Of a stretch of DNA of 64,000 nucleotides, positions 27,450 to 62,338 are shown piece after piece. The position numbers were made by a program, and so were the translations under genes. The stretch covers positions 187,978 to 251,977 of the forward strand of contig MGZB01000055.1 of NCBI GenBank assembly GCA_001801995.1, read 5' to 3'. Below the pieces are notes generated by a model. That model had not been told where the DNA came from. It ran no database searches and saw only the letters and a program-made list of their open reading frames with translations. Every line of letters starts with the position of its first letter. The stretch's first letter is position 1. This DNA is from Gammaproteobacteria bacterium RIFOXYD12_FULL_61_37 (GTDB lineage Bacteria > Pseudomonadota > Gammaproteobacteria > Chromatiales > Chromatiaceae).

Positions 27450-30400
27450 TTTTTGAGCTGCCTGTCCGGCAGTGAAGGATACCGCCTAGGTGCTCATCAA
27501 CTCCGCCAATTTCTGAGCTGCCTGTCCGGCAGTGAAGGGTCACCCTGCCGCCCCTGGCTTTTTTCACCATTTCTGAGCTGCCTGTCCGGCAGTGAAGCGG
27601 GAGGACGTTGAGAAACGGACGCGGAGACTTTTCTGAGCTGCCTGTCCGGCAGTGAAGCCGGGTCAGTTGGCGGACAGGCCGCCGCCTTCTTTCTGAGCTG
27701 CCTGTCCGGCAGTGAAGGAGCGCAATTTCGGCGCCACGCGCAGCGCCATTTTCTGAGCTGCCTGTCCGGCAGTGAAGGCTATGCAGGAGCTGCAATCTTC
27801 AGATCGAGTTTTCTGAGCTGCCTGTCCGGCAGTGAAGCACAGATCCGAGGGGCCGCGCCAGGGCGACCATTTCTGAGCTGCCTGTCCGGCAGTGAAGGGC
27901 CCAATAATCCGGGTCGGCGTAATACCATTTTTCTGAGCTGCCTGTCCGGCAGTGAAGGGGATTGAAGTCGCATGACATTCACGGCGCATTTTCTGAGCTG
28001 CCTGTCCGGCAGTGAAGCACGTCCCCTGTCCCGCCTGCCAGACCCTCCATTTCTGAGCTGCCTGTCCGGCAGTGAAGATCACCGATATCACCCCCGGCAG
28101 CGGGCATGATTTCTGAGCTGCCTGTCCGGCAGTGAAGGCAGTAGAGCGATCGGCGGGGGGCCATATGGGTTTCTGAACTGCCTGTCCGGCAGTGAAGCCT
28201 CTGTTCCCGGAGCACCATCGGCACCAGGATTTCTGAGCTGCCTGTCCGGCAGTGAAGGTATGGCTACGCGGGAGTGGATGTGTAAGGAGTTTCTGAGCTG
28301 CCTGTCCGGCAGTGAAGATTCGTCTGGGCTGGCTGATTTCATCCTTCTGTTTCTGAGCTGCCTGTCCGGCAGTGAAGACAACGTCTGAGGTTGCGTACCT
28401 CAACGATATTTTCTGAGCTGCCTGTCCGGCAGTGAAGAGACTGGTTGACCGTGTTCGTGGCCACAGACTTTTCTGAGCTGCCTGTCCGGCAGTGAAGATC
28501 CCTGGGGCCAGTGGCGATTAGTGGAAATATTTCTGAGCTGCCTGTCCGGCAGTGAAGAGATCATCCACCTGTTCGAGCAGGAGCGGGCATTTCTGAGCTG
28601 CCTGTCCGGCAGTGAAGAACGACCTGGCCGAGGCACCGATCACCGACCTTTTCTGAGCTGCCTGTCCGGCAGTGAAGGCCAGCCGCTTGTTGATGAGCTT
28701 GCCGTTGTCTTTCTGAGCTGCCTGTCCGGCAGTGAAGGTCCGCGCCCTCGACCGTGACGGTGCCGGTCATTTCTGAGCTGCCTGTCCGGCAGTGAAGGAT
28801 GCCTCGGTAAAACTGATCACGGCGCTGGTTTTCTGAGCTGCCTGTCCGGCAGTGAAGATCCGCGAATTCGGCTTCGCCAATCCGGTATTTTTCTGAGCTG
28901 CCTGTCCGGCAGTGAAGATCGACCATTGCTTGCGTCCGGCGGCATTCCCTTTCTGAGCTGCCTGTCCGGCAGTGAAGCCCCTTCGATCAACAGACCTGGA
29001 CCGGCGAATTTTCTGAGCTGCCTGTCCGGCAGTGAAGGGGCACAGACTACCAGGTCAATCTGGCGGCCGTTTCTGAGCTGCCTGTCCGGCAGTGAAGTCC
29101 CAGCCTTTGCCGCTGGCGTATTGCCGGATTTTCTGAGCTGCCTGTCCGGCAGTGAAGATGGAGCGCATGGCTGTGTTCGAGCGCCTGATGTTTCTGAGCT
29201 GCCTGTCCGGCAGTGAAGTCCGCGAACGCGCCCGCAGCGCCTTTGAATGCTTTCTGAGCTGCCTGTCCGGCAGTGAAGCTGGATCTGCAATTCAACGAGC
29301 CGGTCATCGATTTCTGAGCTGCCTGTCCGGCAGTGAAGGCCATGAACACGGCCCAGAGGATCACGAGGGATTTCTGAGCTGCCTGTCCGGCAGTGAAGAT
29401 CTGGATTGCGCTCTAGGTCGATTCCGATCTTTTTCTGAGCTGCCTGTCCGGCAGTGAAGCTGACGGCCGTCGCCGGTGCATCGGCCTATCGTTTCTGAGC
29501 TGCCTGTCCGGCAGTGAAGTGACTCGTTCCGGGTACTGCCGGAACGTGTTTTTTCTGAGCTGCCTGTCCGGCAGTGAAGCTGGTCAGAATTTCATTATCA
29601 CGATCCTTTGATTTCTGAGCTGCCTGTCCGGCAGTGAAGAAACGATCCCTCTCGCCTGGGGTCTGGCATCATTTCTGAGCTGCCTGTCCGGCAGTGAAGC
29701 CCGGCTCGGGCGATCCGATGACGTTGATAGATTTCTGAGCTGCCTGTCCGGCAGTGAAGTTCACCGGTGCGCCCGGCCAGATAGCCAACATTTTCTGAGC
29801 TGCCTGTCCGGCAGTGAAGGAGTCTGCCGCACACAATCGCTCCGCGAGTTTTTTCTGAGCTGCCTGTCCGGCAGTGAAGCTACTATGAAGCGTCGAATGA
29901 AATGTGGGCCATTTCTGAGCTGCCTGTCCGGCAGTGAAGCGAGGGTTTCGGAAGATGAACAGCCGGTTCCTTTTCTGAGCTGCCTGTCCGGCAGTGAAGA
30001 TTCCGGCGCTCCGCCCGATCGGTTCACGGCCTTTCTGAGCTGCCTGTCCGGCAGTGAAGATGGTGTGGCACGTATTGGATATTGTTCGGCATTTCTGAGC
30101 TGCCTGTCCGGCAGTGAAGAGCAAATAGCTATTGACGCGCGCAAAGCCCTCTTTCTGAGCTGCCTGTCCGGCAGTGAAGTTCGTGGTGCGGGCCGCCGCC
30201 GTGCGCCACTACTTTCTGAGCTGCCTGTCCGGCAGTGAAGAGTTACCCCGCGCCGCTGGAGGCCTGGGTCGATTTCTGAGCTGCCTGTCCGGCAGTGAAG
30301 AGCCTGCTGGACGAGCTGTTGCCCCAGATCCATTTCTGAGCTGCCTGTCCGGCAGTGAAGCTGGACCTGGGCGCCGAACAGATCGTCATCCATTTCTGAG

Positions 30401-33400
30401 CTGCCTGTCCGGCAGTGAAGGAGGTCGGACACCAGGGCGTCGAGCTGGCCTATTTCTGAGCTGCCTGTCCGGCAGTGAAGGTGGTGCTGATCGCCCCCCA
30501 CGTCGAGCAGATTTTCTGAGCTGCCTGTCCGGCAGTGAAGGTTGAAATTTACGGCTTTGCGCTTGACCACATTTTCTGAGCTGCCTGTCCGGCAGTGAAG
30601 TCCTCTTAGATGCTACGAAAGCGGGCGATGTTGTTTCTGAGCTGCCTGTCCGGCAGTGAAGTCGAGGTTGCGTAATAATCGCCGGTGCGCATCTTTCTGA
30701 GCTGCCTGTCCGGCAGTGAAGGCAACAACGGACGCGGCGGCCGCCGGTTGCATTTTCTGAGCTGCCTGTCCGGCAGTGAAGGGATACCGGCGTTGGAAGC
30801 GCTCACCAAGGCATTTCTGAGCTGCCTGTCCGGCAGTGAAGAGGGTAACGCCGTAGCCGCTCGGGATGACGTTTTTCTGAGCTGCCTGTCCGGCAGTGAA
30901 GATCAACGCCCTGCGCGACCAGTACGGCATCAATTTCTGAGCTGCCTGTCCGGCAGTGAAGATGAAAACTATTGTTGGGGCTAATGATCCCAATTTCTGA
31001 GCTGCCTGTCCGGCAGTGAAGATCGAGAATGCCGCGCAGACGGTCCCCGGTGTTTTCTGAGCTGCCTGTCCGGCAGTGAAGGACAGCAGTCAGATCCCCT
31101 TCTTGCTTCGGGATTTCTGAGCTGCCTGTCCGGCAGTGAAGAATAAGAAACAGCTCAAATTCGTAATCACACTTTTCTGAGCTGCCTGTCCGGCAGTGAA
31201 GGCATCGTGTAACTGGTGGCGCCGACCGTCACATTTCTGAGCTGCCTGTCCGGCAGTGAAGTGACAGTCTTAGTGCCAGCGGCAAAAGCCACAATTTCTG
31301 AGCTGCCTGTCCGGCAGTGAAGATTGACGCACCGTCGGCAAATACGGAGTGATATTTCTGAGCTGCCTGTCCGGCAGTGAAGTCCGGGACCGGCGGCTGG
31401 ATCGATATCACCAATTTCTGAGCTGCCTGTCCGGCAGTGAAGGTGCCGTCCGACCGCTGGCGGGCGGTGATGGTTTTCTGAGCTGCCTGTCCGGCAGTGA
31501 AGGATCCCATGGGCCAAGTGGGAGCCCGGCATCATTTCTGAGCTGCCTGTCCGGCAGTGAAGACATCGGCATGAGCGTCGAGGCGGTCTCGGCATTTTCT
31601 GAGCTGCCTGTCCGGCAGTGAAGTCATACTGAACAAATGCGAGCTGATCCTCATATTTCTGAGCTGCTTGTCCGGCAGTGAAGACCGCGCTCGCAACATC
31701 TTGGGCTAGAGCATATTTCTGAGCTGCCTGTCCGGCAGTGAAGTTACGGTGGTGGGCAACGGCGTCACCCGGAGCTTTCTGAGCTGCCTGTCCGGCAGTG
31801 AAGCGATCGCATCATCGTCGAGAAGGTGCTCCCCTTTTCTGAGCTGCCTGTCCGGCAGTGAAGGCATCATCATGGACCCAAAGGCCGGGGACATATTTCT
31901 GAGCTGCCTGTCCGGCAGTGAAGGCATCATCATGGACCCAAAGGCCGGGGACATATTTCTGAGCTGCCTGTCCGGCAGTGAAGATCGAATATCGCTCCTT
32001 CTCGTGCGATGTGGGCTTTCTGAGCTGCCTGTCCGGCAGTGAAGATTGAGCCCGGCCAGCATCGAGGCCCCGTAGTTTTCTGAGCTGCCTGTCCGGCAGT
32101 GAAGACAGAAGAAGATCGCCGATGCCGATGCCGGGCTTTTCTGAGCTGCCTGTCCGGCAGTGAAGGACCTGACCAACGGTCTGACGATTGCGGTCAATTT
32201 CTGAGCTGCCTGTCCGGCAGTGAAGGCATTGCGGGGCAAGCTCGCCCAGGCCTCGGCTTTCTGAGCTGCCTGTCCGGCAGTGAAGGCGAGGATGGCGGTG
32301 CGCAAGCGGTAGATAGCTTTCTGAGCTGCCTGTCCGGCAGTGAAGCAGTGTCCGCGATGATTCCGCACGAGGTATTATTTCTGAGCTGCCTGTCCGGCAG
32401 TGAAGCACATCGGTGAACTCCCTGCCGATTGTGTGCTTTTCTGAGCTGCCTGTCCGGCAGTGAAGCCGGGAACTTCGCCACGAAATACCTACTGTCATTT
32501 CTGAGCTGCCTGTCCGGCAGTGAAGTGTACGATCTTAGCCATGGGGTGTCCTCCTGATTTCTGAGCTGCCTGTCCGGCAGTGAAGGCGTAGTTCCGGCGG
32601 ACGAACGCGATAGCCCCTTTCTGAGCTGCCTGTCCGGCAGTGAAGGATGGCACGTTCACTACGCTCCAATCGGAAATTTTCTGAGCTGCCTGTCCGGCAG
32701 TGAAGTTCAACCAAGAAATCGATGACCCTCCTTATCTTTTCTGAGCTGCCTGTCCGGCAGTGAAGATGTATGACGCCTCTACCCCATCGGATTTCTGTTT
32801 CTGAGCTGCCTGTCCGGCAGTGAAGTGAGTGGCATGGTGAAAAACCGCCATTTATCACTTTCTGAGCTGCCTGTCCGGCAGTGAAGACTCGCTTCCACTT
32901 CTCGTCCTCAACGCATGATTTCTGAGCTGCCTGTCCGGCAGTGAAGTCATCGACCATATCCAGATCATGTCCGCGAAGTTTCTGAGCTGCCTGTCCGGCA
33001 GTGAAGCTCGATGTCGGGCACTTCGGGTTCTTCTTCGTTTTCTGAGCTGCCTGTCCGGCAGTGAAGAAGCCTGTTGTATGCAAACAACACTTTATCACTT
33101 TCTGAGCTGCCTGTCCGGCAGTGAAGCGGTACGCAACCATAGGCTTACCATGCGGGACTTTCTGAGCTGCCTGTCCGGCAGTGAAGCGTTCCGGTGTGTA
33201 TCTCGCTCTCATCGAACTTTTCTGAGCTGCCTGTCCGGCAGTGAAGGGAGACCAATCGGCCCGAGCCATGGTGACAGATTTCTGAGCTGCCTGTCCGGCA
33301 GTGAAGTCACTCATATTTTGCTTTTAGCCTAGCGAGCATTTCTGAGCTGCCTGTCCGGCAGTGAAGGCATCGCCGAGCTATTAGATCGGATGCTCACCTT

Positions 33401-34627
33401 TCTGAGCTGCCTGTCCGGCAGTGAAGCTTAGATGTGGCGGCCCCGCCGTACATCAGGTTTTCTGAGCTGCCTGTCCGGCAGTGAAGCTGGAGGATTCTCT
33501 AGCGAGCGACAAGCTGTTCTTTCTGAGCTGCCTGTCCGGCAGTGAAGAGAACGCTCGTCCTCGCCCACCTTCCATACAATTTCTGAGCTGCCTGTCCGGC
33601 AGTGAAGACACTGGCCCCGCATCGTAGGAATCGATTACGTTTCTGAGCTGCCTGTCCGGCAGTGAAGTGGATACAGCGATAAGCACCCGCACATAAATGT
33701 TTCTGAGCTGCCTGTCCGGCAGTGAAGGAGCCGCAACTTAGTTTCGATTGATCCGTCTGTTTCTGAGCTGCCTGTCCGGCAGTGAAGAAGAACGAAGGCA
33801 ACCCCCTGGCCTGGTTCCTTTTCTGAGCTGCCTGTCCGGCAGTGAAGAAAGAAAAACGAGGGGGGGCAGGCCGCGGCCATTTCTGAGCTGCCTGTCCGGC
33901 AGTGAAGAATGGCGGGAGTGCTACGCAGGCGTATGTACATTTCTGAGCTGCCTGTCCGGCAGTGAAGACGAGCCGGACACACACCAGCACCTTCGTGCTT
34001 TTCTGAGCTGCCTGTCCGGCAGTGAAGGCGGGCGCACTTACGCGCACGGGGGGGAGCTTTTTCTGAGCTGCCTGTCCGGCAGTGAAGGCTGGTGTGTGTC
34101 CGGCTAGTAGAGGGGACCATTTCTGAGCTGCCTGTCCGGCAGTGAAGTATTTTTGAAACAGGGTTGCTCAATCGTTTCCTTTCTGAGCTGCCTGTCCGGC
34201 AGTGAAGGTGGGATTATGTGTCCCACACCAACCAAACGATTTCTGAGCTGCCTGTCCGGCAGTGAAGGAGTTGGATGCCAGCTCCTTTATCATGTTGCAT
34301 TTCTGAGCTGCCTGTCCGGCAGTGAAGATTTTGAGGGACTAACACGGACAAACGCAACGTTTCTGAGCTGCCTGTCCGGCAGTGAAGCGGCGGCTAGAGC
34401 CCTGGAGGACTCGCTAGCTTTTCTGAGCTGCCTGTCCGGCAGTGAAGGCGTGATGTTGTAGTTTCCGCCCGCTGGAACTTTTCTGAGCTGCCTGTCCGGC
34501 AGTGAAGTTCCAGACCGAATTCTATAAGCGCATGGGCGATTTCTGAGCTGCCTGTCCGGCAGTGAAGTGCTCCAGGGCGGCATTCTCGGCTTCGGGTCTT
34601 TTCTGAGCTGCCTGTCCGGCAGTGAAG
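27450..34627 (-). CRISPR. Type I-F CRISPR array, 120 repeats and 119 spacers
   Basis: The array has 120 repeats of 28 bp at a 60-61 bp period: 109 spacers of 32 bp and 10 of 33 bp. Read on the transcribed minus strand, the repeat begins CTTCACTGCC and ends GCTCAGAAA, with a CTGCC/GGCAG stem of the type cut by Cas6f. The leader and cas genes lie at the right end, so the newest spacers should be near 34.6 kb. I saw three variant repeats: the leader-distal terminal copy at 27450-27477, 28170-28197 and 31656-31683, each with one substitution. One spacer is present twice in tandem (31864-31895 and 31924-31955). All ORFs inside the array are artefacts of the repeat being open in several frames. Confidence 0.99.
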
Positions 34628-57506: not shown

Positions 57507-57590
57507 TCATTGCATCCTCCAGGCTTTGTACCCGATAGAACAAAGAAATAGGCCAATGCCCGACCACAGGCCGAACGCAAAAAATCGCAG
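57507..57590 (-). pseudogene. C-terminal fragment of a small membrane protein (cassette remnant)
   Basis: On the minus strand, directly after palindrome copy 1, an open frame reads FAFGLWSGIGLFLCSIGYKA and ends at TGA 57507-57509. It is a hydrophobic C-terminal tail whose N-terminus has been replaced by the palindrome. Confidence 0.4.
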
Positions 57591-57654
57591 AATTACGGTG
57601 ACACTTTACTAAATACACTCGATAAAGTGTATTTAGTAAAGTGTCACCGTAATT
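57591..57654. repeat. 64-bp palindromic element, copy 1
   Basis: 29-nt arms starting AATTACGGTGACACTTTACT and ending in its exact inverse, with the loop CGATAA. Two further copies lie at 59211 and 60107. The element ends a few bases from the DUF2971 stop codon and abuts the membrane-protein fragment. Confidence 0.9.
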
Positions 57655-57671
57655 ACCGTAATTTAGGTCTT

Positions 57672-58451
57672 TTAGACGTAGCCACAGTCATACCTTTCAA
57701 CCATGCACATGCCGATGTTGATGGCTGCCAACGCGGTGCGGTTAAGCTCGTTGCATTTGGGGCCAAGCCATATCTCTGGAATTACCACGGCCATGCTCGA
57801 AATCGCTTCGTTGTCTTCCCAGAAATTTGCCTCGGTATATGGAATCAAGAGTTGGTTAGAAAGGCGCATCTTCACAGTGCCATGATCAACTGACTGGACT
57901 GCACGTACTTCCTGTTCCTCGACGAACGCCGGGTTCTTTAGGGCTATGATGTCTTTGACTATGGCCGAGAAATTTTCTTTGTGCTGATTGATCCATTCCA
58001 TGAAGCTGTTTTCGGCAGGGTTGTCGAGTCTCGCTTGATGTACTGAGTCAGCAAATGAAGCGTATTTTGTAGCAAGTTCCTGTGCGTAGGTTTCATGATT
58101 CTCATACTGACAATCCACGAGATCAATTTTTGCGAACTTCAAAAAGAGATCATCAAACCCAATGGCAACGCCGGTTCCGTCAGCCGCATACGCTCGCCAT
58201 TGACTGAGAATTTTTGGGGATTTCGACATGCTGAGCACACAATGATGGGTATTCATACCGTGCCAAAGAAAGGCTCTTTCGAATGATTCCCGTTTCTCTA
58301 CTGCCAGATGCGCCAGGAGCGCTGATAAGCCTTGCTTCAATTCTTGCTTGTCATTCAGGAAGCGATAGTCGGTAAGCCAAACCCTACGGGACGTAATGAT
58401 GCCGAGACATCCGGCTATAGTGGTGTAGTGATAGTAAATGGGACGGCTCAT
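57672..58451 (-). CDS. DUF2971 family protein (integron cassette)
   Basis: The 259-residue product begins IYYHYTTIAGCLGIITSRRV with WLTDYRFLNDKQELKQG, the N-terminal signature of DUF2971, and has LSQWRAYAADGTGVAIGF and an EEQEVRAVQ segment further on. DUF2971 proteins are frequent in integron cassettes and mobile islands, with unknown activity. It is the leader-distal cassette here, preceded by a good attC at 58464-58529. Its own 3' attC is replaced by palindrome copy 1; only an ACCTAAA, perhaps a degenerate R'' core, remains after the stop. Confidence 0.75.
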   Translation of the reverse strand: MSRPIYYHYTTIAGCLGIITSRRVWLTDYRFLNDKQELKQGLSALLAHLAVEKRESFERAFLWHGMNTHHCVLSMSKSPKILSQWRAYAADGTGVAIGFDDLFLKFAKIDLVDCQYENHETYAQELATKYASFADSVHQARLDNPAENSFMEWINQHKENFSAIVKDIIALKNPAFVEEQEVRAVQSVDHGTVKMRLSNQLLIPYTEANFWEDNEAISSMAVVIPEIWLGPKCNELNRTALAAINIGMCMVERYDCGYV

Positions 58452-58463
58452 AGAGGTACGATG

Positions 58464-58529
58464 ACCTAACGTGGAGTTGAGCGGCCTGCGCGGCTTTTCG
58501 CGCAGGTCCGCTCGAACGCAGGGTTATGC
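58464..58529 (-). other. attC recombination site
   Basis: The core sites ACCTAAC and GTTATGC bracket a 66-bp imperfect palindrome with the stem GCGGCCTGCGCG-GCTTTT-CGCGCAGGTCCGC. The stop codon of the 58524-59108 gene lies inside the core. The inner 30 bp match the attC at 59841-59920 almost exactly. Confidence 0.85.
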
Positions 58530-59108
58530 CTTCCTTTCACTCGCCAAGCTCCAAACGGATATCTGTCTGATTGCGTCATGGTGTATGCCGCGAACGACCT
58601 TCCCCTCTGTCTCTAAAGCGCTAAGCAGGCGCATAGCATGCTGTTTCGCAATATCTAGCTCCTGTGCAATTTGGCTTATGTTCATAGGGCCAGCGCCAAG
58701 AAGGTCCAATATCTGCTGCCCTCTCGGAGAAATGCTTATGGACTTAATGACCTTTTCGAGCTGGTTAGACGCTGCTTCAATTTGCGTTGGCGTAAGCGGA
58801 CTGGCGCCGCTTATGGGATTAGATAGAGTTTCAATAAATTTCGACTTAACAGACTTAACAGAGAGACGAAGCGACTCCAAATACATAGATTCATCCTCGA
58901 AATCGCCAGGTGCGTATAGGACAGTATGGTTCCAGTTGAGTACCGCGAAGAAGAGCAAGACGATCAGCGTAGGAAAGGCCATTACAAAGTACACGAACAA
59001 GTGCTGGATTTCGCTTGGCACATTGACCAGTGCGTAGGTTGCAAATGCCTCTGCAAGACCCGCGAATATTGCTACCACCGTCAAAGGATTACTGACTTTT
59101 GCACTCAT
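58524..59108 (-). CDS. Membrane protein with winged-helix domain (integron cassette)
   Basis: The 194-residue protein has two predicted transmembrane helices (about residues 8-28 and 36-60: VVAIFAGLAEAFATYALV; VYFVMAFPTLIVLLFFAVL). A cytosolic part follows whose last 70 residues look like a MarR/ArsR-type winged helix (ILDLLGAGPMNISQIAQELD, AMRLLSALETEGKVVRG). A membrane-tethered transcription regulator is one reading. It is a cassette gene of unknown function, preceded by the attI-like sequence at 59144 and followed by the attC at 58464. Confidence 0.6.
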   Translation of the reverse strand: MSAKVSNPLTVVAIFAGLAEAFATYALVNVPSEIQHLFVYFVMAFPTLIVLLFFAVLNWNHTVLYAPGDFEDESMYLESLRLSVKSVKSKFIETLSNPISGASPLTPTQIEAASNQLEKVIKSISISPRGQQILDLLGAGPMNISQIAQELDIAKQHAMRLLSALETEGKVVRGIHHDAIRQISVWSLASERKA

Positions 59109-59143
59109 GTCTCATTCCGGGAAGAGAGGCCAATTGGAAGGCA

Positions 59144-59210
59144 TAACGTGAAATAGACGACACGGATCGTAACGCCTCATGCCGCCTGAATCAAACCTTA
59201 TCTACATAAG
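59144..59210 (-). other. Second copy of the integron attI sequence inside the array
   Basis: 67 bp identical at 65 positions to 61230-61296, the region between intI and the first cassette. On the minus strand it ends in ACGTTATGCC, a recombination core, directly before the 58524-59108 cassette. On its other side the identity stops exactly where palindrome copy 2 begins. Confidence 0.8.
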
Positions 59211-59592
59211 AATTACGGTGACACTTTACTAAATACACTCGATAAGGTGTATTTAGTAAAGTGTCACCGTAATTGTCCGTAATTGTCTGACCCCGTGCTT
59301 TGGTTTTGGGCCAACGTCTCGGATTGTGGGCATCATGCAACACGGCCAATACATGTACGAGATCGCCCCGTACCGCATAAAACAAACCGTATGGAAACCG
59401 AGGAAGGAGAGATCGGCGAACACTGGGAATTACCTCAGCATAAAGCAGAGGCGCGTGTTCTAGCCGTTTTAACTGCAATTCCATTGCCGCAATGAATTCT
59501 TCACCGAGACCGGTGTTCTGCAATTCGTACCACTCTCGAGCTTCGCCGATTTCGCGTAACGCTCGCGAAGAAAATTTTAGGCGGAACGCCAT
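59191..59592 (-). CDS. RelE/ParE-family toxin with C-terminal read-through extension
   Basis: The conserved toxin fold spans about 95 residues (FSSRALREIGEAREWYELQN, AVIPSV-like VIPSVRRSLLPRFPYGLFY, VLHDAHNPRRW). After NPRRWPKTKA, where ParE proteins normally end, the frame continues through palindrome copy 2, adding about 35 residues (including VYLVKCHRN) before the stop. The extension is probably a by-product of the palindrome insertion. It overlaps the antitoxin gene by 16 nt and belongs to the same cassette. Confidence 0.8.
   Translation of the reverse strand: MAFRLKFSSRALREIGEAREWYELQNTGLGEEFIAAMELQLKRLEHAPLLYAEVIPSVRRSLLPRFPYGLFYAVRGDLVHVLAVLHDAHNPRRWPKTKARGQTITDNYGDTLLNTPYRVYLVKCHRNSYVDKV
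59211..59274. repeat. 64-bp palindromic element, copy 2
   Basis: The same element as at 57591, with one substitution in the loop-proximal part of the right arm. It lies between the ParE-type toxin gene and the internal attI copy, and supplies the C-terminal codons of the toxin ORF. Confidence 0.9.
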
Positions 59593-59810
59593 GAGCCATT
59601 TTTAAGGTGTGATTTAACTTGATCCCAGGAATAACCAGCATCCGGGTTTGCCTCAAATTCCTCCAAGCGCACTTCGAGCTTGGCCTTTAGCGCAGGAGAA
59701 ATTTCCACAGCTTCAGGAACAGCCGCAACGCTATCCCAGATTAGCTCGACAAGATGAATGCGTTCTTGTACCGGAAGCTCAAGAATGTCGGAAATAGAGA
59801 TGTTGTTCAT
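59577..59810 (-). CDS. Addiction-module antitoxin (ParE partner)
   Basis: The start is ATG 59810 (MNNISISDILELPVQERIHL); the long upstream ORF start is spurious. The 77-residue protein is of the putative addiction-module component family, with IHLVELIWDSVA and FEANPDAGYSWDQVKSHL. The order antitoxin then toxin, with overlapping ends, is usual. It sits 30 nt after the attC at 59841, as expected for a cassette gene. Confidence 0.82.
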   Translation of the reverse strand: MNNISISDILELPVQERIHLVELIWDSVAAVPEAVEISPALKAKLEVRLEEFEANPDAGYSWDQVKSHLKNGSWRSA

Positions 59811-59840
59811 GCTTGATATTGTACACTTTTTCGGGAAACG

Positions 59841-59920
59841 CATAACGTGGAGTTGAGCGGCTGTAGGGGAGCGGCCTGCGCGGCTTTTCGCGCAGGTCCG
59901 GTGCATTGCAGGGTTGGGGC
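59841..59920 (-). other. attC recombination site
   Basis: 80 bp from CATAACG to GTTGGGG. It shares AACGTGGAGTTGAGCGG and the GGCCTGCGCGGCTTTTCGCG stem-loop with the attC at 58464. It follows the stop of the CPBP fragment and precedes the antitoxin gene. Confidence 0.85.
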
Positions 59921-59922
59921 GC

Positions 59923-60106
59923 TCATGCGTCTTTGGCCACCAACAAGGCAGCCAGCAGGTTGTTCGCAATATGAGCAGCCACTGAAGGCCAGATGGATGC
60001 GCTTCTTGCGTAAAGCGCACCTGCCAACAGACTGAAAACGAAGACGCCGCCGACGTTGAAAAGAACCGCTGGAGCAGCGCCGGCATGTGACAGCCAGTAC
60101 GGCAGG
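59923..60106 (-). pseudogene. C-terminal fragment of a CPBP-type intramembrane protease (cassette remnant)
   Basis: After palindrome copy 3 the minus-strand frame reads FNVGGVFVFSLLAGALYARS, then IWPSVAAHIANNLLAALLV, and stops at TGA 59923-59925. The HIANN motif with its histidine is the last conserved motif of CPBP (CAAX-protease-like) membrane proteins. The N-terminal two-thirds are missing and replaced by the palindrome. Confidence 0.65.
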
Positions 60107-60170
60107 AATTACGGTGACACTTTACTAAATACACTTCATAAAGTGTATTTAGTAAAGTGTCACCGTAATT
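60107..60170. repeat. 64-bp palindromic element, copy 3
   Basis: Same arms as copies 1 and 2, with a TCAT-type loop variant. It lies 8 nt from the half-attC GCCCAAC (60178-60184) and truncates the CPBP fragment. Confidence 0.9.
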
Positions 60171-60204
60171 CCTATTCGTTGGGCGTCTGTGCCAAGGCGA
60201 TGGA
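60171..60204 (-). other. Half attC site interrupted by palindrome copy 3
   Basis: On the minus strand the antitoxin stop is followed by GCCCAAC, an R'' core, but the rest of the attC and its GTTRRRY partner are absent. Palindrome copy 3 begins 8 nt further on. Confidence 0.5.
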
Positions 60205-60543
60205 TTAGCGGTCTGATGTAGCGCGACGTTTTACTGCGGGCTTGCGAGTTGCACTAGTGACGGACCCCGGCCGCTCTGAAAGGCGACCAGTAACATATTT
60301 ATGCAAAACGCTAGCAATTAGCGTTTGGTACGGCAGACCTTCCTCTAAAGCCTTGACCTGAATATCGTTCAGATCTCCCGAAGACAGGCGGATATTGACC
60401 CGGCGATCCTTGATTGCGGTGGCACGCGCGGCAGCCTTGAATTTGGCAAGTTCAGCTTTCGTTGCGACGGACTTCAGTTGGCCTTTCTCGAAGGCGCTCA
60501 GCACTTCGAGTTCGTATTCATCAATTTTCGGCATCTGGCTCAC
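60205..60543 (-). CDS. CopG/BrnA-like antitoxin (integron cassette)
   Basis: The 112-residue protein has a C-terminal ribbon-helix-helix-like segment (RRVNIRLSSGDLNDIQVKAL, then LPYQTLIASVLHKYVTGRL) and a basic tail. It overlaps the BrnT-like toxin gene by 23 nt in the order toxin then antitoxin, which is the brnT-brnA order. The MSQMPKIDE start at 60543 or the ATG 9 nt later are both possible. Confidence 0.75.
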   Translation of the reverse strand: MSQMPKIDEYELEVLSAFEKGQLKSVATKAELAKFKAAARATAIKDRRVNIRLSSGDLNDIQVKALEEGLPYQTLIASVLHKYVTGRLSERPGSVTSATRKPAVKRRATSDR

Positions 60544-60814
60544 CTTGATTCAGATAGTCCCGAGTAGCCTTGCGGCTCGGGATCACGGTCTTGAGGAAAA
60601 AGTAATCTTCTTCCTCGACGAACGGCACCAAGTAGGCGTAGTTGTCGCACGAGACGACAAGAACGCGCTGCCTTGGATATTTCGACTGGTTCGGGTGGGC
60701 CAAGATGTCCAGCAACCCCCCGGACTCGATGGCGACCACGATGTTCTCAAACGAAATGCCCCGCTCAGACGAGAGCGTTTCATTCTTCTCTGCGTTCCAG
60801 CGAAATGGTTTCAT
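60521..60814 (-). CDS. BrnT-like toxin (integron cassette)
   Basis: The 97-residue product begins FRWNAEKNETLSSERGISFE, the BrnT pattern (F-W-x-x-x-K-N ... R-GISF), and continues QRVLVVSCDNYAYLVPFV with a charged C-terminus. BrnT is a RelE-fold ribonuclease neutralised by BrnA. It shares a cassette with the antitoxin at 60205, typical of toxin-antitoxin pairs that stabilise integron arrays. Confidence 0.72.
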   Translation of the reverse strand: MKPFRWNAEKNETLSSERGISFENIVVAIESGGLLDILAHPNQSKYPRQRVLVVSCDNYAYLVPFVEEEDYFFLKTVIPSRKATRDYLNQGEPDAEN

Positions 60815-61226: not shown

Positions 61227-61296
61227 GCCTAACGTAAAATAGACGACACGGATCGTAACGCCTCATGCCGCCTAAATCAAACCTTATCTACATAAG
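61227..61296 (-). other. Integron attI site
   Basis: Between the integrase start and the first cassette. On the minus strand it ends ATTTTACGTTAGGC, a recombination core like that of attI1. A near-identical 67-bp copy is at 59144-59210. The cassette promoter would be expected here or in the adjacent intI 5' region. Confidence 0.7.
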
Positions 61297-61357
61297 CACA
61301 TGATGATAAAACATTTATCCGTTGCGCCGCATAATAACACATCCTAAAATAACGCGG

Positions 61358-62338
61358 ATGGAAGTTAAAGTCGTTTCTCAACAATCGCCAAAGTTACTGG
61401 ACCGGATGCGGGCCGAAATCCGGCTGCGTCATTACAGCATCCGCACGGAAGAGGCCTATGTGGATTGGTCTCGGCGCTACATCTTGTTCCACAACAAGCG
61501 ACATCCCCAGGAGATGGGCGCCGAAGAGGTGACGGCCTTTCTCTCCCACCTGGCGAATGAGCGGAATGTCTCGGCCTCGACGCAAAATCAGGCGAAGTCG
61601 GCCCTGTTGTTCCTTTACCGGGAGGTGATTGGGATCGAATTGCCCTGGCTGGATGAGGTGGTTGCGGCCAAGGTGTCGCGGCGTCTGCCGGTGGTGTTGA
61701 CCCAGACAGAGGTGCGCCGTTTGCTTGAGGCGACTTCGGGGACCATGGGTCTTGTGATCAGTCTGCTGTACGGGACGGGAATGCGATTGTTGGAGGGGCT
61801 GCGGCTACGGGTGAAGGATGTGGAGTTTGAGCGCCGGGAGATCATCGTGCGCGAGGCCAAGGGCAACAAGGACAGGGTGACGGTGCTGCCGGAGAACCTG
61901 ATCCTGTCGCTGAAGGCGCATCTGGAAAAGGTGAAGGCGTTGCATGAAAAGGATCTGGAGGCGGGCTGGGGCGATGTCTATTTGCCGGATGCCCTGGCGG
62001 TAAAGTACCCGAACGAGGCCAAGGCTTGGGACTGGCAGTATGTGTTTCCATCGCCGGTGCGGTCGGTCGATCCGCGCACGGGCAAGGAGCGGCGGCATCA
62101 CCTGTACGAGGCCAGCGTGCAGCGGGCGGTGCGGGAGGCAACGAAGCTGGCGAATCTGGTCAAACCGGTAACGCCCCATGTCTTGCGCCACTCGTTCGCC
62201 ACCCATCTGTTGCAGGCGGGTTACGACATCCGCACGGTGCAGGAGTTGTTGGGTCATAAGGATGTGCAGACGACGATGATCTATACCCATGTCCTGAACA
62301 AGGGCGGGCGGGGTGTGGTGAGCCCGTTGGACCGGTGA
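61358..62338 (+). CDS. intI: Integron integrase IntI
   Basis: The start is ATG 61358 ([20 protein letters not shown]), giving 326 residues as usual for IntI; the TTG 36 nt upstream is less likely. The tyrosine recombinase residues are present: Arg in [13 protein letters not shown], HxxR in [12 protein letters not shown], His in LLGHKDV and Tyr in TMIYTHV. The IntI-specific insertion is clear ([17 protein letters not shown], then WQYVFPS) and distinguishes it from XerC/D and phage integrases. It is divergent from the cassettes, which lie to its left on the minus strand. Confidence 0.93.

Follow-up and report, generated by a model that had tools for sequence, protein, structure and literature searches.

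Several groups of mobile elements are comparable to the repeats described here. IS1111-attC insertion sequences and group IIC-attC introns reside inside attC sites, at one fixed insertion position and with both attC halves left. Integron mobilization units, which are MITE-like and flank class 1 integrons, consist of short inverted-repeat elements bounding integron DNA. REP sequences and REPINs, which occur with RAYT transposases in Pseudomonas and E. coli, are hairpin doublets that are non-autonomous and presumably mobilized in trans by the RAYT. RAYTs flanked by terminal inverted repeats (TIRs) have been named TIRYTs and their elements TIRtrons, and some of the TIR families are repeated as dimers (De Nocera et al., 2013, PMC3733652); similarly close is RAYT group 1, which equals subclass 2.1 of TnpA-REP (Quentin et al., 2018, PMC6006769). 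The family analyzed here shares with these a RAYT-type Y1 HUH transposase, long flanking TIRs, and the multiplication of the TIRs in the genome, singly or as dimers. TIRYT palindromes are already known; here they occur repeatedly at broken ends of integron cassette arrays. Neither of the two studies (PMC3733652, PMC6006769) reports an association with integron cassettes, and a search of the open literature, with subscription papers and preprints outside its scope, found no publication linking RAYT/TIRYT or REP elements with attC sites or cassette arrays. The link appears to be previously undescribed.

The window, a stretch of 64,000 nucleotides from the Chromatiaceae genome RIFOXYD12_FULL_61_37 (contig MGZB01000055.1, positions 187,978 to 251,977), contains an integrase, an attI site, and attC cassettes, the defining components of an integron. 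The integrase gene intI is on the plus strand (61352..62338; TIGR02249, 472 bits), and the cassettes run leftwards on the minus strand from the main attI site (61227..61296, minus strand, identified by sequence comparison). Three copies of a palindrome, recognized by sequence and folding and without strand assignment, lie inside this one array at 57591..57654, 59211..59274, and 60107..60170 (copies 1 to 3), each at a broken cassette junction. The positions and the number for the window were given correctly in a preliminary description of this DNA, which called them 64-bp palindromes. A shuffled-sequence control predicted zero chance matches to the 64-bp palindrome. All three copies fold into an uninterrupted, near-perfect hairpin with a 28–30 bp stem and a 4–8 nt loop (z scores of -12.8 to -15.8). 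Elsewhere in the window, TTTCTGAGCTGCCTGTCCGGCAGTGAAG recurs many times at positions 27495-34467, and these copies resemble the repeats of type I-F CRISPR arrays.

The cassette features around the palindromes are all on the minus strand. At the left edge of copy 1 a gene is cut down to a 26-codon C-terminal fragment of what is, from its translation, probably a membrane protein (57510..57590); the translation had no Pfam match. To the right, a DUF2971 cassette gene (57672..58451, assigned by domain and sequence) ends 17 bp from copy 1, and its own attC is gone. A complete attC follows (58464..58529), scoring 89.9 bits with covariance model R1, a score that is not independent because this site is one of the sequences used to build the model. 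Next is a winged-helix cassette gene (58524..59108) directly behind an internal partial attI copy of 70 bp (59141..59210), which was recognized by comparison with the main attI and starts exactly at copy 2, on its left side. The right side of copy 2 carries a stub, GGGGTCAGACAATTACGGAC (59275..59294), whose sequence resembles the GGGGWSAS TIR type of other TIRYTs (motif from PMC3733652), and the 3' end (last codons) of a ParE-like toxin gene (59283..59592); an antitoxin gene (59577..59819; profile match to TIGR02574) lies beyond. A further attC (59843..59920, found with the covariance model) belongs to a CAAX-protease/Rce1-like cassette, whose gene is cut at the left of copy 3 to a C-terminal fragment of 60 codons (59925..60106; PF02517 positions 58-93 of 93) but still has this attC. 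Right of copy 3 only half an attC is recognizable by sequence (60171..60184), consisting of R'' GCCCAAC (60178-60184) and 7 nt, next to a BrnT/CopG-type toxin-antitoxin cassette (60205..60814) that has lost most of its attC. The arrangement agrees with the preliminary description, which had placed a cassette gene end or half attC to the right of each copy and a truncated gene or the internal attI copy to the left.

The palindrome is made up of a fused pair of TIRs, GAATTACGGTGACACTTTACTAAATACAC. One of the six Y1 transposase genes in the genome sits between two matching TIR ends (C3:42919-43667), and the two ends that flank the gene (42919 and 43667) match the palindrome arms. Since the palindrome equals the two ends of this element joined, it is a TIR dimer. 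The partner transposase (C3:43253-43576; protein of 224 aa) matched PF01797 (Y1_Tnp) above the cut-off with an E value of 4.5e-8, scored 75.7 bits against REP_Tyr_transpos NF047646, just under the cut-off of 80, and aligned with the solved TnpA-REP structure 4er8 (E 6.7e-7) over the HVH and Y-NPV region. The protein accordingly has the Y1_Tnp domain, HxH motif, catalytic tyrosine, and TnpA-REP similarity of a RAYT, together with a C-terminal extension of ∼80 aa. A DnaA/HTH-like extension at this end characterizes RAYT group 1 (subclass 2.1); no HTH family was among the Pfam matches of the protein. As in TIRYTs, the RAYT gene is bordered by TIRs that are repeated elsewhere as singles or dimers, and RAYT homologues in many Proteobacteria are bordered by the same TIRs; a search for the RAYT on plasmids found none. 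The TIR core, GGTGACAS, is related to the GGGGWSAS core of TIRtrons, but the TIR itself begins GAATTACGGTGACAS, and the dimers here are near-perfect hairpins of 64–75 bp. A REPIN identity was rejected: no GTAG guide was seen at the C3 element, and unlike REPs and REPINs the repeat has neither the GTAG tetranucleotide nor a pair of separate short REP hairpins, being one long uninterrupted palindrome. As in integron mobilization units, short inverted-repeat elements bound integron DNA here, but those units derive from other transposon types and have no RAYT ends. The initial comparison with REP-type palindromes that have transposase partners was therefore right in kind. The palindrome is probably a MITE-like, non-autonomous derivative of a RAYT-family TIR element (TIRtron/TIRYT) in which two TIRs are fused head to head, and it would have been moved in trans by the RAYT of this genome or by a former one.

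Two draft genomes, the one studied (G000) and that of a sister species (G001, 220 contigs), were compared for the distribution of the family. A whole-genome search of G000 found 39 places (complete palindromes or single ends, a family total of about 39) on 15 contigs, and G001 contains ∼75 copies, mostly of 71 bp. Among other relatives a single TIR end was found in one of 36 genomes, and close family members have almost none; only in this genus does the repeat reach high copy numbers. About eight G001 copies could be aligned to homologous G000 sites without the element. These insertions, at unrelated loci, are simple: the left flank is usually intact up to the insertion point, most lose 0–40 bp at the opposite flank, and the ∼8 aligned sites have no duplicated target. 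A target-site duplication was also rejected on a larger set, with direct repeats of ≥3 bp at 2 of 59 copies versus 1.4 expected. Copies are preceded by G (48/59) and followed by C (38/59), bases that probably belong to the element tip. A second TIR tip lies within 20 bp in 25 of 149 flanks, or about one in six (2 in shuffled sequence), perhaps left behind by nested insertion or by cleavage of the ends more than once. Shortened TIR tips also form ladders (GAATTACGGTGA-ATTACGGTGACT-GAATTACGG...) outside element ends at L051 4910-4960, L054, L056, L046, and many G001 copies, and these ladders may record the same kinds of event. Other palindromic repeats (GTAGGGGCGGGTTTGAAACCCGCCCCTAC; CCGGTGGGCATGTACTCATGCCCACCGG) are present beside several copies (G000 C15:52.6k and C56:66.5k; G001 C37:15.1k).

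The association with attC sites was evaluated with covariance model R1, which was built from seven attC sequences of this genus and scanned over whole genomes (clusters at E <0.1); some of the seven had first been spotted near palindromes, and the attC and TIR lists both come from whole-genome scans. Scanning with a loose attC motif gave far too much noise and was dropped. Twelve attC clusters were found in G000, and eight of them have a TIR place within 1 kb, compared to 0.27 expected at random (P ∼3e-11). The suggestion that copies are linked genome-wide to attC sites and truncated genes thus withstood the whole-genome check. Closer inspection added two cassette loci, C25 and C55:297k, for a total of ten TIR-linked cassette loci; four G000 clusters are without a TIR. 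A reading without any targeting would hold that dispensable cassette DNA simply tolerates insertions, the link reflecting relaxed selection and the broken ends ordinary decay. The many unrelated insertion sites and a target preference that amounts to little beyond the G before and C after are consistent with it, but the excess persisted when both features were confined to 15% of the genome (1.66 expected; P 4e-5) and many G001 copies are in other places, and we consider this explanation possible but on balance unlikely.

Element ends were found within or directly at an attC in at least six places: in the central loop (C25:109448), at the R' end (C40:25213), at the R'' start (C55:297353), in the L'' arm (C55:298493), 2 bp from R'' (C10:63339), and 7 nt behind R'' (window 60170). 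These ends, one in a central loop and one abutting R', could mean that the RAYT element targets attC sites specifically as folded single strands, much as IS1111-attC elements and group IIC-attC introns target them, with the missing halves explained by insertion and adjacent deletion. RAYTs are HUH single-strand enzymes (PMC6006769), and an attC lies beside a RAYT in two other MAGs (L051, L045; see below). The cut position, however, differs between attC sites, and in G001 the link is weak, with most of the ∼75 copies elsewhere and one of five attCs having a copy ∼1 kb away. Nor did the genome-wide flanks reveal a hairpin preference: folding of the flanks of 72 copies did not clearly differ from matched non-coding control positions (best-side P 0.17), and general hairpin targeting was rejected. 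An excess of flank self-complementarity (9 copies versus 2.9 by permutation, p 0.0025) was discarded, as it was partly due to repeated TIR tips. In a rough count of ∼20 element-cassette junctions, the excess of attC over the rest of the cassette was only marginal, so that specific targeting of attC is a possibility that we regard as unlikely. The repeat also does not behave as an attC-specific element of the IS1111-attC type: its positions vary, attC halves are missing, both halves are never kept, and the enzyme is different. Since no copy in the genome is flanked by both attC halves, insertion alone is insufficient to account for the junctions. Of the proposal that the element inserts into attC sites, then, what stands is the position of these ends in or against attCs.

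The cassette clusters themselves differ according to whether they are linked to the repeats: TIR-linked clusters contain 1–2 attCs and TIR-free clusters 2–4 (exact P 0.004). At C15:67502-71806 of G000 (L021 1602-5906), a TIR is followed by two genes, a second TIR, an attC-cassette-attC unit, and a third TIR. This TIR-bounded segment (C15:67.9-71.6k) is missing at the corresponding place in G001, where its flanking genes adjoin, and its two genes are located elsewhere in G001, adjoining a region that is 57 kb away in G000. As judged from this gene order, the C15 segment has clearly been relocated relative to the sister species; it is the sole relocation resolved, and its direction is given without outgroup rooting. 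Where synteny is lost around other islands, the cause could be poor conservation or the division of G001 into 220 contigs. A second integron remnant at C25:108414-109671 (L025 4415-5672) retains the first codons (5' end) of intI, attI, and one cassette. It ends in an attC that is cut in the loop by a 224-bp RAYT-element remnant, beyond which there is chromosomal DNA; in G001 the two flanks of this integron remnant lie on separate contigs. The internal attI copy of the window is likewise a stranded piece of this sort. G001 also contains a broken integron at C208:41073-41838 (L134), in which intI is truncated to its first 71 residues and accompanied by attI, one cassette, and attC; no TIR end of the palindrome family was found at that locus.

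The substrates of integron integrase are folded single strands, and cassettes also occur at sites outside integrons. IntI might therefore have placed single cassettes beside the hairpins as secondary sites, like the attG sites mentioned in PMC12444791, which would fit the existence of dispersed single cassettes. The junctions, however, lie within attC sites or cassette genes rather than at the G/TT crossover point, and TIRs are present on both sides of array fragments that retain the preceding attC, making an action of integrase on the palindromes very improbable. The draft status of the genomes also raises the possibility that unrelated DNA was joined in assembly at short identical palindromes, as perfect palindromes are presumably error-prone. 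The palindrome of 64 bp is shorter than a usual read, the pattern recurs at ten different loci and in other MAGs, and diverged, old ends (C25, C40) have the same pattern; an assembly artefact is extremely improbable.

The arrangement recurs outside the genus. A Thiorhodococcus MAG (L051) has an attC and, after it, a cassette gene at whose stop codon a RAYT TIR directly begins, and this attC is the only one of its type found in that genome with model R1. The RAYT gene of a Chromatiaceae MAG (L045) has an attC-like site ∼70 bp behind it; this was the one convincing extra site from a generic motif and folding search of 57 RAYT loci. Because these are only 2 of the 57 loci, screened with the genus-tuned model R1 and a simple motif search, they establish that the arrangement recurs and do not give its frequency. 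Ends of other TIR types (GGGGTCAG, GGGGACAC) were also observed near attC sites (window 59275-59294; L045 near 5355; G001 C55:9853), hinting that several TIRYT families share an attC-adjacent habit. A broader version of targeting, in which a RAYT/TIRYT clade prefers attC or the folded cassette strand and its palindromic ends excise and relocate cassettes without integrase to yield scattered single-attC cassettes, seems distinctly unlikely.

We favor as the probable explanation repeated insertion of the RAYT family into cassette arrays, which were then fragmented by exchange or breakage at its palindromes. This explanation builds on direct observations, namely the TIR identity, the partner gene with the same ends, the spread within the genus, the simple insertions in G001, and the co-location with attC. 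Copies and full elements would have inserted repeatedly into the arrays and then served as points of exchange or breakage, through annealing or recombination between identical palindromes or through hairpin cleavage and repair. Such events would have deleted the DNA between copies and moved pieces of the arrays that are bounded by TIRs; the half attCs, truncated cassette genes, and stranded attI copy would be their residues. With deletion and relocation at the palindromes, the window array would thus be a mosaic in which palindromes mark the joins between two or more integron segments. The preliminary description had offered recombination between copies, with loss of the DNA in between, as a second hypothesis; the two-sided truncations, single-attC islands, and relocated segment fit it, but no deletion was directly seen at the window junctions. 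No intact ancestor of any window junction was found and, there being no pair of attC halves either, insertion and deletion were not followed stepwise. The weak attC link in G001 and the four TIR-free attC clusters in G000 count against the favored explanation. We nevertheless infer that exchange or breakage at the palindromes fits the fragments and the relocation better than simple insertion does.

Chromosomes commonly carry lone cassettes and attC clusters that lack an integrase, and their origin is debated between non-classical attG integration and integrase loss. Small RAYT-derived palindromes adjoining most of the cassette clusters in one genome offer a concrete and testable route to them, by fragmentation and relocation of arrays. 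The effects of RAYT-type elements on their hosts are poorly known, and the reading favored here would give them a visible effect on a device of genome plasticity.
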